Source: Lachnospiraceae bacterium (GTDB taxonomy: Bacteria; Bacillota; Clostridia; Lachnospirales; Anaerotignaceae). Taken from it: a stretch of 33,813 bases of DNA. Location: assembly GCA_028695945.1 (NCBI GenBank), contig JAQVIB010000002.1:1-33813 (forward strand). The letters run 5' to 3'. Both the position numbers and the translations under genes were made by a program. Positions 849-21,869 of this stretch are shown piece after piece; the stretch's first letter is position 1; each line of letters starts with the position of its first letter. A model generated the notes under the pieces. The model worked only from the letters and a program-made list of their open reading frames with translations, searched no databases and was not told the DNA's origin.

Positions 849-1340
849 TTAACCAATTTTACTGCTTGTATATTTAACCAAGCCGCCCTCTGCCATTATC
901 TTTTGCATAAACTCTGGAAAAGGCTCTGACTTATAGGTTTTTCCTGTTGTAACATTAGTAATAACACCTGTTGTGAAATCAACACTAACCTCATCATCTG
1001 CTTTAATGTCGTTTGCCGCTTCTTCACATTCTAAAATTGGCAACCCAATATTAATTGCATTGCGGTAGAAAATACGAGCAAATGTTGAAGCAATAACACA
1101 ACTGATACCTGCACATTTTATAGCAAGAGGTGCATGTTCACGAGATGAGCCACAGCCAAAATTTTTAGTTGCAACAATAATATCGCCTTTTTTAGCCTTG
1201 TTTACAAAGTCTGCGTCAATATCAATCATACAATATTTTGCAAGCTCTTCACCGCTGGATACATTAAGGTATCTTGCTGGTATAATTACGTCTGTATCCA
1301 CGTTATCGCCATATTTAAAAACTCTTCCCTTTGCCTCCAT
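849..1340 (-). CDS. leuD: 3-isopropylmalate dehydratase small subunit
   Basis: [38 protein letters not shown] motif; start codon overlaps the leuC stop (TAATG). Confidence 0.97.
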
Positions 1341-2620
1341 TAGTTCATACCTCCTGTAATTTTTTCTGGGTCTGCAATATATCCAACCAGTGCCGATGCC
1401 GCTGCAACAGCTGGGCTTGCAAGGTAAACTTCGCTTTCTGTATGTCCCATTCTGCCTACAAAGTTACGGTTAGTTGTAGAAATTGCCCTTTCTCCTTCAG
1501 CAAGTATACCCATATGTCCGCCAAGGCATGGTCCGCATGTTGGGGTAGAGAAAATTGCACCTGCTTTAATAATATCTTCTGCATATCCAAGCTTAATACA
1601 ATCCAAATAAATCTGCTGTGTTGCAGGAATTACAATGGTTCTTACACGCTTGTGTACCTTTTTGCCTCTTAAAATGTCTGCGGCAATTTTCATATCCTCT
1701 AAACGTCCGTTTGTACATGAGCCAATAACTGCTTGGTCCAGAACAACTTTAAGACTTTCTGCTTCATCAATTGTTTTTGTGTTATCTGGCAAATGTGGGA
1801 AAGAAATGGTAGGACGTAATGTGCTTAAATCAATTGTAATAACCTCATCATACTCTGCGTCCTCATCAGCCTCAAATATTTTATATTTCTTTGTTGTGTG
1901 GTCATTTTCATATGCAATAGTTTTGTCATCTACAGGGAAAATGCCGTTTTTAGCACCCGCTTCAATTGCCATATTTGCCATAGCAAATCTATCATCCATA
2001 GAAAGATGGCTAATACCATCACCAACAAACTCCATAGATTTATATAACGCACCATCAACACCAATTTTTCCTATTATGTGTAAAATAATGTCCTTACCAC
2101 TAATCCATTTAGCTGGCTTACCAGTAAGTACAAATTTAATTGCACTAGGCACTTTAAACCACGCTTCACCTGTTGCCATGCCAATTGCCATATCTGTAGA
2201 GCCAACACCTGTAGAAAAGGCTCCTAATGCACCATATGTACATGTATGGCTGTCTGCACCTATAATAACTTCTCCTGGTGCAACAATACCCTTTTCAGGA
2301 AGAAGTGCATGTTCAATACCCATTTCGCCAACATCATAAAAATGCTTTATGTCCTTTTCCCATGCAAATTCTCTGCTACACTTGCACTGCTGTGCCGCTT
2401 TAATATCCTTGTTTGGTGTAAAATGGTCTAATACAATTACTACTTTTTCTTTGTCAAAAACCTCTGTAGCCCCTGTTTTTTTAAATTCTGGTATTGCTAC
2501 AGCAGTTGTAATGTCGTTGCCCATAACTATATCCAGCTTTGCCTGTATCAATTGCCCTGCTTTAACGCTTTCTAAGCCAGCGTGTGCCGCCAGTATTTTT
2601 TGTGTCATTGTCATTCCCAT
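1340..2620 (-). CDS. leuC: 3-isopropylmalate dehydratase large subunit
   Basis: Aconitase-family motifs ([47 protein letters not shown]). Start trimmed from the listed ORF to MGMTMTQ (cat at 2618-2620), preceded by gaaggaggaaaataaa. Confidence 0.96.
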
Positions 2621-2644
2621 TTTATTTTCCTCCTTCAGATATTG

Positions 2645-2887
2645 ATTGGAACATCGTTCCAATCCTTGTGTCGATAAAGTTAAAACCTTGAGGGCTCTGC
2701 CCTCAAACACCCACAAGGGTTTCACCGGTCAGCACTTTGCGACCCAAAGCTGTCCTGCGGACAGATGGCATGTCTTTGCCATTGCATAATTGACCAATCT
2801 AAAACCGCATCTCATGCGGTTTTAATAAAGTTTTTGGTCTTGCTTTTTTCAAAAAGCAAGTGGGTTTGGGCAACGCCCAAGGTTTGT
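2645..2887. repeat. Intergenic hairpin array: eight consecutive short inverted repeats
   Basis: Stems read directly: 2645-2663, 2688-2706, 2727-2744 (imperfect), 2750-2764, 2765-2782, 2801-2823, 2839-2860, 2866-2880. Confidence 0.85.
2821..2887 (+). repeat. Dispersed palindromic repeat, copy 1
   Basis: tttaataaagtttttggtcttgcttttttcaaaaagcaagtgggtttgggcaacgcccaaggtttgt; recurs in reverse orientation at 21394-21460 with few differences. Confidence 0.9.
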
Positions 2888-2920
2888 CTCCAGTATGTTT
2901 GAAATCAGTTCCAGTAACAA

Positions 2921-4579
2921 CTAATCTATAATTTTATTTACGGCACTAACTACCGCCCTAAGTGATGACTTTATAATATTGCTTGATGTTCCTGCACCGA
3001 AACCAACCTTTCCTTTTCCATCAGAAACCTGCACATAAGAAATGGCTCTTGCTTTTGTTCCATATTCCATAGAATGTTCACGGTAATCATTAATTTCAAG
3101 TTTAACCTCAAAATGTTTTTCCAATGCATGTGTAAAAGCGTCAATAATACCATTACCCATGCCACAAATTGTTAATGGCTGTCTGTGATAAGTAATCTCT
3201 GCCTCAACAGTAACCTCTTCGTCATCACTCTTATTAATTTCTCTATATTTCTCAATTGAAATTGGGTTTCTTCCGTCAACATAAGTGTCGAAGAATACAT
3301 TTCTTATAGCACTTGGTGAAACGTCCGTATGGCTTCTATCCGAAAGCTTAGTAATAACAATACTGAAATCCTGCTGAAAAGCTCTTGGTAAAAACATTCC
3401 GTAGTTTTGCTCCAACACAAATGCTACTCCACCCTTTCCAGACTGGCTGTTAATTCTAACAATAGGGTCGTAAGTTCTGCCAACATCCATAGGGTCAATT
3501 GGTAAATAAGGTACTTCCCAATGATCTGGATGGTCTTTCATTCTGTCCATTCCCTTTCTTATTGCATCTTGATGTGAACCCGAGAAAGCTGTATAAACTA
3601 AAGCCCCTGCATATGGATGCCTTGGGTGTACTGCAAGCCTTGTTGTTCTTTCGTAAATTTCAACTGCGGCATCTATATCACTGAAATCCAGTTCTGGGTC
3701 AATGCCCTGAGAGAAAATATTCATTGCAACCGCCATAATATCGGTATTTCCCGTTCTTTCTCCGTTTCCAAATAAAGTTCCCTCAACCCTGTCTGCTCCT
3801 GCCATAATTGCGAGCTCTGTTGCCGCTACGGCAGTGCCTCTATCGTTATGTGCATGAAGGCTGACGATAAGGTTTTCTCTGTTTCTAAGCTTACTGCACT
3901 GGTATTCAATTTGGTCTGCATATATATTTGCTGTTGCCATTTCCACCGTAGATGGAAGATTGATAATAAGCTTCTTTTTTGCAGTTGGTTTAATAACATC
4001 AATTACAGCATTACAAATTTCAACTGCGTAATCCATTTCTGTTCCCGTAAAGCTTTCTGGTGAATATTGAAAAAAGAAATCTGTTTCAGGAATTTTTTCT
4101 GCTTCAGAAATTAAAAGCTTTGCACCCTCAACCGCAAGTGCAGTTGTCTGCTCCATGCTATTCCCAAAAACAACATCTCTTTGCAATGTTGAAGTTGAAT
4201 TGTAAAGGTGAACGATTGCTTTTTTTGCACCCCTTAACGCCTGAAAAGTTTTCTTAATAATTTCCGGACGGCTTTGTGTAAGCACCTGCACCACAACATC
4301 ATCAGGAATTAAGTTTTCATCAATAAGCTTTCTTGCAAACTCAAACTCTGTATCACTTGCCGCAGGAAAACCAATTTCAATTTCTTTAAAACCTATTTTA
4401 ACCAAATAGTTGAAAAACTCCATTTTTTCATCAAGACTCATAGGTATTTCAAGGCTTTGGTTACCATCTCTAAGGTCTACACTACACCAGATAGGTGCTT
4501 TTGTAATAACAGCACTTGGCCATTTTCTATTAGGCATATTCATTGTTGGGTATTGACGGTATTTTGTATAGTTCATCAT
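2921..4579 (-). CDS. leuA: 2-isopropylmalate synthase (type-2 LeuA)
   Basis: RKWPSAVITKAPIWCSVDLRDGNQSLEIPM N-terminus, SLHAHNDRGTAVAATELA, C-terminal LeuA regulatory domain. Confidence 0.95.
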   Translation of the reverse strand: MMNYTKYRQYPTMNMPNRKWPSAVITKAPIWCSVDLRDGNQSLEIPMSLDEKMEFFNYLVKIGFKEIEIGFPAASDTEFEFARKLIDENLIPDDVVVQVLTQSRPEIIKKTFQALRGAKKAIVHLYNSTSTLQRDVVFGNSMEQTTALAVEGAKLLISEAEKIPETDFFFQYSPESFTGTEMDYAVEICNAVIDVIKPTAKKKLIINLPSTVEMATANIYADQIEYQCSKLRNRENLIVSLHAHNDRGTAVAATELAIMAGADRVEGTLFGNGERTGNTDIMAVAMNIFSQGIDPELDFSDIDAAVEIYERTTRLAVHPRHPYAGALVYTAFSGSHQDAIRKGMDRMKDHPDHWEVPYLPIDPMDVGRTYDPIVRINSQSGKGGVAFVLEQNYGMFLPRAFQQDFSIVITKLSDRSHTDVSPSAIRNVFFDTYVDGRNPISIEKYREINKSDDEEVTVEAEITYHRQPLTICGMGNGIIDAFTHALEKHFEVKLEINDYREHSMEYGTKARAISYVQVSDGKGKVGFGAGTSSNIIKSSLRAVVSAVNKIID

Positions 4580-4637: not shown

Positions 4638-4905
4638 AAAGCCCTTCGTCTCCTATAATAGAGACGAAGGGCATAACCTCCGTGGTACCACTCTCATTTG
4701 TTCCCAAAGGGAACACACTTAATACGGATACAGGCAGTAAACCTAATCAGTTCTGCTGTATATCCTGTCATTATAACGGTTGACCTCCGATTCCACCTAT
4801 TAACATTCTAAAATGGTTGTTTTTTCAGCGAATCACTCCAAGGCGAGTTCAATTTCTCTCGTATTACTGCCTCGCACCACACGGCAGCTCTCTGAAAATC
4901 TTAAG
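4638..4905 (-). promoter_or_regulatory. T-box leader controlling leuA; candidate specifier CUC (Leu)
   Basis: Reverse strand has gagagtggtaccacgg (T-box motif, about 4680-4695), terminator gcccttcgtctctattataggagacgaagggc (4641-4672), and gaaCTCgccttggag with specifier CTC at 4845-4847. Confidence 0.93.
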
Positions 4906-4962
4906 AAATTTACTATTCCTCTTCACAGTGTTATTAAAACTATTCAATTGATGTTGAAAACT

Positions 4963-21353: not shown

Positions 21354-21383
21354 ATAGCGTAGCAGTTAAAAACTACTACGCTA
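21354..21383 (+). terminator. Hairpin downstream of the DUF5131 gene
   Basis: tagcgtagcag-ttaaaaa-ctactacgcta, one mismatch. Confidence 0.6.
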
Positions 21384-21393
21384 AGACTGAATA

Positions 21394-21460
21394 CAAACCA
21401 TGGGCGTTGCCCAAACCCACTCGCTTTTTAAAAAAAGCGAGACAAAAAACTTTTATTAAA
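21394..21460 (-). repeat. Dispersed palindromic repeat, copy 2
   Basis: Reverse strand tttaataaaagttttttgtctcgctttttttaaaaagcgagtgggtttgggcaacgcccatggtttg; near identical to 2821-2887. Confidence 0.9.
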
Positions 21461-21869
21461 ATACATCCTTGTGTTGATGTTTTGAACCAAATATTCTTTC
21501 ATCTAAATCGCAGTCTATCTCTTTGTTTTTACCAATTTTACTAAAAACCCCTTGCCCACCCTTACCCTTTTCACGGGTAAGATAGTCGTCCTTTTCTTTG
21601 CCCATACCAAAACTGTTGTTTAAATGTGTTGGCTTCGGCAACCTTGTTGCTGCTGTTTGCTGTACCTTTGGTTTCACAGGTGCAGATGTTCTTTGTGTTG
21701 TATTGGGTGTTGTATTAACTGTGGTTCTTGCCCTTTGGTAAGATTGTCCAGGACTTCCGGCCGCATTTTTTTGATTCAAATAATCTCCATATGTGGGCAT
21801 CTTTGCTTTACCAACAAAATAGTAAATCAGACCGTATACAAGTACGGTTATCAATATTCCGATTCTCAT
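21456..21869 (-). CDS. Hypothetical protein, N-terminal TM plus Thr/Pro/Gln-rich linker
   Basis: MRIGILITVLVYGLIYYFVGKAKMP then low-complexity linker; RBS ggagggt; stop codon lies inside repeat copy 2. Confidence 0.7.
   Translation of the reverse strand: MRIGILITVLVYGLIYYFVGKAKMPTYGDYLNQKNAAGSPGQSYQRARTTVNTTPNTTQRTSAPVKPKVQQTAATRLPKPTHLNNSFGMGKEKDDYLTREKGKGGQGVFSKIGKNKEIDCDLDERIFGSKHQHKDVF

Follow-up and report, generated by a model that had tools for sequence, protein, structure and literature searches.

The window, i.e., the whole stretch of 33,813 nt that was analyzed, contains a leucine operon on the minus strand. The hairpin-rich sequence described here is located in the gap between leuA and leuC. 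The features that define the operon are the following:

4657-4935, minus strand: T-box leader 5' of leuA (Rfam RF00230, 135.6 bits, E 2.7e-30)
2921-4579, minus strand: leuA, isopropylmalate synthase, the upstream neighbor of the gap (Pfam HMGL-like, IPMS_D2 and LeuA_dimer)
1340-2620, minus strand: leuC, isopropylmalate dehydratase large subunit, the downstream neighbor (Pfam Aconitase)
849-1340, minus strand: leuD, isopropylmalate dehydratase small subunit (Pfam Aconitase_C)

The start of leuC was set at the conserved MGMTMTQK. The T-box leader has its terminator stem at positions 4672-4641 and is likely the actual regulator of the leu operon. The leuA-leuC gap is approximately 300 bp here and approximately 100 bp in the sister species. 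It is approximately 20-80 bp in eight of ten other genomes of the bacterial family, and approximately 140 and 230 bp in the remaining two.

A preliminary description placed eight consecutive hairpins in this gap, and the named inverted repeats are all found there. Seven count as perfect in region 2640-2890, with perfect arms of at least 6 bp and loops of 2-6 nt. They start at the following positions:

2644: GATTGGAAC/GTTCCAATC
2688: TTGAGGGC
2750: CTGTCC
2765: ATGGCA
2800: TAAAACCGCAT
2839: CTTGCTTTTT
2866: TTGGGC

The mean over 1000 dinucleotide shuffles is 0.40 such repeats and the maximum is 4. A scan of the entire window shows that five perfect inverted repeats are reached only by 251-bp stretches starting at 2600-2700. 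As minus-strand RNA, the gap has a predicted fold of -103 kcal/mol (z = -5.3), and none of 100 shuffles is as stable. The array of hairpins is confirmed and greatly exceeds chance expectation. One of them was mis-parsed in the preliminary description: in place of a third, imperfect hairpin GGTC..GACC, the transcribed strand gives a CTTTG-GGTCG-CAAAG hairpin plus a separate TGACC, which can pair with a GGTCA approximately 60 nt upstream.

The array is one copy of a dispersed repeat. A BLAST search of the same assembly with positions 2620-2910 gives at least 89 match rows in at least about 40 places; 40 of 88 first-look candidates were scored and the resulting copy numbers are lower bounds. A pattern for the core of module A (see below) has 49 matches in this genome and two in the sister species (the only other genome of the genus compared), with no occurrence of the reversed-pattern control. 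Of the options offered at the outset, the composite palindromic element is thus the right one, and the BLASTN comparison with the same genome and relatives, proposed as a check, reveals a repeat family. The copy in the window has no transposase and consists of three modules in the order A-B(n)-C. Its parts and flanks, in the order in which they are transcribed, are:

2664-2897, minus strand: repeat copy, about 234 bp with its ends
2898-2916, minus strand: probable left copy of the target hairpin, decayed, TACTGGAACTGATTTCAAA, which aligns with the right flank TGGAAC-GATGTTCCAA
2883-2897, minus strand: left terminal inverted repeat CATACTGGAGACAAA (family form CAGACTGWWGACAAA), from a comparison of ends over 47 copies; IS1182-family elements of the bacterial family have matching ends
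2789-2889, minus strand: module A, about 101 nt, with TTGGGC-gtt-GCCCAA, CTTGCTTTTT-GA-AAAAAGCAAG and TAAAACCGCAT-gag-ATGCGGTTTTA (75 copies aligned; core count)
2727-2788, minus strand: module B, about 62 nt, single here, with ATGGCA..TGCCAT, CTGTCC-gca-GGACAG and CTTTG-ggtcg-CAAAG (copy-number comparison within the genome)
2668-2726, minus strand: module C, about 59 nt, with GGT-gaa-ACC and TTGAGGGC-aga-GCCCTCAA, then GGTTTTAACTTTATC (65 copies aligned)
2664-2678, minus strand: right terminal inverted repeat TTTATCGACACAAGG (family form TTTGTCWACAGTCTG), from the comparison of ends
2644-2664, minus strand: hairpin GATTGGAAC-gat-GTTCCAATC, outside the repeat, the probable right-hand target stem-loop (BLAST matches stop at approximately 2668; flank comparison)

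The first of the eight hairpins is present as described, but it lies outside the repeat. The TGACC at the 3' end of module B can pair with the GGTCA at the end of module A. The module C hairpin at 2687-2707 is terminator-like in a consensus scan, with a weak T tail. The ends CATACTGGAGACAAA and TTTATCGACACAAGG of the window copy are degenerate forms of the terminal inverted repeats. Young copies have terminal inverted repeats at both ends, CAGACTGWWGACAAA or, in an Anaerotignum genome, CAGACTGTCGAAAAA. The ends in relatives are CAGACTGTCGAAAAA and TTTATCGACAGTCTG in genome G026, and CAGACTGAAGACAAA and TTTGTCTACAGTCTG elsewhere.

Within the genome, the forms ABC (12 copies), AC (9), ABBBC (4) and BBBBBC (1) are found, plus truncated copies. 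The number of B modules is thus 0, 1, 3 or at least 5, and exactly two are never seen. In tandem arrays of module B (L018, L021, L026, L037 and L042), the B copies within an array have variants in common. The sequences point to an origin of the tandem B modules by local amplification. Many copies in the genome (e.g., L003, L007, L016 and L028) start abruptly at AAACCTTGGGC, without a CAGACTG end, and their interiors are approximately 90% alike.

Matches to the repeat are found in 21 of 58 genomes of the family, with near-full-length copies at 80-88% identity in the genus Anaerotignum (Anaerotignaceae). Partial matches to modules A and C extend to further families of the order (a total of 23 of 246 genomes) and are rare in the rest of the class. 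Phage and plasmid records contain no match, so there is no sign that the repeat travels on them. No named repeat was found in the open literature for Anaerotignum, Ruminococcaceae or Lachnospiraceae, where this repeat may still have been described.

At the leucine locus the repeat lies in sense with leuA and leuC. The same gap lacks it in the 11 other genomes of the family compared, i.e., the sister species and ten others, where conservation at the locus would be expected of a leucine riboswitch or attenuator. The copy is an insertion and not a leucine-specific feature; its presence here is genomic traffic, because the array is one copy of a dispersed repeat. The corresponding gap of the sister species (approximately 100 bp) has diverged too far for an empty site to be recognized to the exact base, and its predicted fold has a short ATTGG..CCAAT hairpin. 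Either the insertion postdates the split from the sister species or it was lost there.

The preliminary description also raised an RNA stability or processing island and a structured RNA. A leucine-operon device of this kind, i.e., an mRNA processing, stability or attenuation island that sets leuA apart from leuCD, would be consistent with the very stable sense-strand fold, the terminator-like hairpin of module C and the sense orientation of the array within the operon. However, the same sequence adjoins dozens of unrelated genes, the array is missing from the spacer in all 11 genomes noted above, and the operon already has a T-box leader. The base changes in the stems also bear on this. Single changes to wobble pairs show no strand bias (49 G-U vs 61 A-C on the transcribed strand, p = 0.29), and this near equality does not favor selection on the RNA of either strand. 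In Rfam, positions 2600-2930 have no covariance-model match at E values up to 1. With no wobble asymmetry, no Rfam match and no array in the relatives, neither proposal finds support, and a leucine-specific RNA device is very unlikely. The insertion might still affect leuCD expression incidentally, given the strength of the fold and the terminator-like hairpin, with its weak T tail, at 2687-2707.

In the stems, 55 cells carry a double change that yields a different Watson-Crick pair, most of them in the AAAACCGCAT hairpin. Because double changes give other Watson-Crick pairs, the palindromes appear to be maintained or corrected. The position of the copies is also biased. Those in this genome mostly lie no more than a few tens of bases from a stop codon, and among the 31 copies with two clear flanking ORFs, 13 are between convergent and 18 between co-directional ORFs, with none between divergent ORFs (orientations are approximate, as they are from simple ORF calls). 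The maintained palindromes, with double changes concentrated in one hairpin, and the location at the 3' ends of genes could both be read as signs of a BOX- or REP-like repeat with palindromes selected by the host, e.g., for nucleoid or gyrase binding or for mRNA 3'-end protection, with mobility only a means of spread. The orientation bias is, however, what terminator targeting predicts, and such targeting explains the position bias. Correction from arm to arm can also yield double changes, and the presence of 49 cores here against two in the sister genome is unlike a common host function. Host selection of the palindromes is consequently improbable.

In relatives, the same terminator-like stem-loop is found directly outside both ends of the repeat; L128, for example, has AAGGGTGCAGACGGTGTCTGCACCCT to its left and AAGGGCGCAGACGATGTCTGCACCCT to its right. 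Over 47 copies, matched left and right flanks have a mean score of 23.0, compared with 12.1 for mismatched flanks, and none of 10,000 permutations is as high. A target duplication is clear from the sequences of the relatives. Copies of the window's own genome, taken alone, score 13.9 (matched) vs 12.8 (mismatched; p = 0.05). Their outer ends and duplications are mostly decayed, and the weak match is as expected if these copies are old. The flank score of the window copy is 18, which is reached by two of 92 mismatched flank pairs (shuffle p about 0.05), and its flanking sequences are suggestive of a target duplication. The hairpin at this site has no T tract, so the target here would be a stem-loop and not a classical terminator.

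A duplication of this type is also found with insertion sequences. Genome G022 has 11 copies of an IS (L102-L117) with ends CAGACTGTCAAA. Nine have exact stem-loop duplications of 20-31 bp and two have near-exact ones, for an overall range of approximately 20-35 bp. Two of the nine have identical flanks and perhaps represent one event. The transposase matches the NCBIfam IS1182 profile (NF033551) with 374.8 bits against a cut-off of 270. A transposase in genome G009 also matches NF033551 above the cut-off, and the IS ends there are CAGATTGTTGACAAA and TTTGTCAACAGGCTG. In genome G026, the IS1182 end CAGACTGTCGAAAAA is identical over 15 of 15 bp to the 5' end of the repeat in that genome, and is located at a terminator hairpin. 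The IS copy with this end runs off its contig and carries an early in-frame stop; its transposase fragment matches NF033551 below the whole-protein cut-off, and the copy may be decayed. The stem-loop duplication is thus a signature common to IS1182-family elements and the repeat in the same bacterial family. Searches with the PF13751 and PF05598 profiles detect no IS1182 transposase in the assembly that contains the window, which is 73.7% complete and in 226 contigs. Multi-copy IS are often lost from incomplete assemblies with many contigs.

Stem-loops have been described as targets of IS1272, a member of the IS1182 family, and in the model for IS1272 a joining at the 5' foot of the stem-loop may duplicate the entire stem-loop (PMC5678879). 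IS1272 itself was reported to replace the target stem-loop, without target duplication (PMC5678879).

Taken together, the sequence comparisons make it very probable that the array arose by insertion of a non-autonomous element, MITE-like and BOX-like in its modularity, which was probably mobilized by IS1182 at stem-loops. The three palindrome-built modules A-B(n)-C form the interior, between imperfect terminal inverted repeats (CAGACTGWWGACAAA). The ends are probably recognized in trans by an IS1182-family transposase, as inferred from the end identities described above. The transposase would insert them at stem-loops, in most cases transcription terminators at gene 3' ends, and the entire stem-loop would be duplicated by gap repair. 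Between leuA and leuC, the target was probably the small hairpin at 2644-2664 in the spacer. The sense insertion would have given the leu mRNA a strongly folded stretch, which might lower or uncouple the expression of leuCD. A different route, with spread mainly by recombination or hairpin-mediated copying and with coincidental CAGACTG ends, would account for the many copies in this genome that begin at AAACCTTGGGC without a recognizable CAGACTG end. This is highly improbable, because the end identity with the G026 IS1182 element is 15/15 and IS and repeat have an unusual type of stem-loop duplication in common.

The proposed IS1182-mobilized repeat resembles several known elements. MITEs are short, non-coding and multi-copy, with terminal inverted repeats, target duplication and an IS with the same ends; here the corresponding properties are a length of approximately 234 bp, 49 cores, terminal inverted repeats and, in relatives, duplication of the whole stem-loop, and the candidate partner with matching ends in the same genome as the repeat is the cut IS1182 copy of G026. 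The difference is that there is no sign of a simple internal deletion of an IS, as the A, B and C interior is not seen in the IS ends examined. With IS1182 and IS1272 the repeat has stem-loop targeting in common, and its terminal CAGACTG ends are those of IS1182 elements of the same bacterial family, but it has no transposase, and IS1272 is reported to replace its target stem-loop without duplication. The REP/BIME elements of enterobacteria are intergenic and palindromic, lie at gene 3' ends and, in the case of REP, are associated with RAYT (Y1) transposases. The repeat has the same location and palindromic character, but its ends match those of the DDE-type IS1182.

The BOX element of Streptococcus pneumoniae has the structure boxA-boxB(n)-boxC, with terminal inverted repeats and target duplications reported (PMC3049150). 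Both elements are dispersed, a few hundred bp long and rich in hairpins, with a parasitic-looking distribution, terminal inverted repeats and target duplications, and both have three modules with a middle one that varies in number, including zero (n = 0, 1, 3 and at least 5 here). The repeat differs in that its target duplication is a whole stem-loop of 20-35 bp and its middle module is approximately 62 nt with three hairpins. It is not classified as BOX, as the comparison was one of architecture.

The repeat is ordinary in function, and what is instructive is the link of a modular repeat to the IS1182 transposase. It provides a concrete case in which a modular BOX-like repeat is tied through its ends to a transposase family. 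IS1182-family insertions that duplicate entire terminator stem-loops can leave a terminator on either side of the insert, and the 11 IS copies of G022 represent a clean data set for target choice by IS1182. When hairpins are densely arrayed between the genes of an operon in such Clostridia, they may belong to a mobile repeat and not to a regulator. A broader role is conceivable but unlikely: little-described modular, terminator-duplicating repeats would have rewritten the 3' ends of dozens of Anaerotignaceae genes, growth of module B (0, 1, 3, 5) would alter transcript ends or operon coupling, and the leuA-leuC copy would be domesticated.

The window contains one additional copy of the repeat:

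21384-21461, plus strand: second copy, 3'-truncated, between two convergent ORFs, with a good left end AGACTGAATACAAACC

A terminator-like hairpin at positions 21355-21383 is located directly before this copy.
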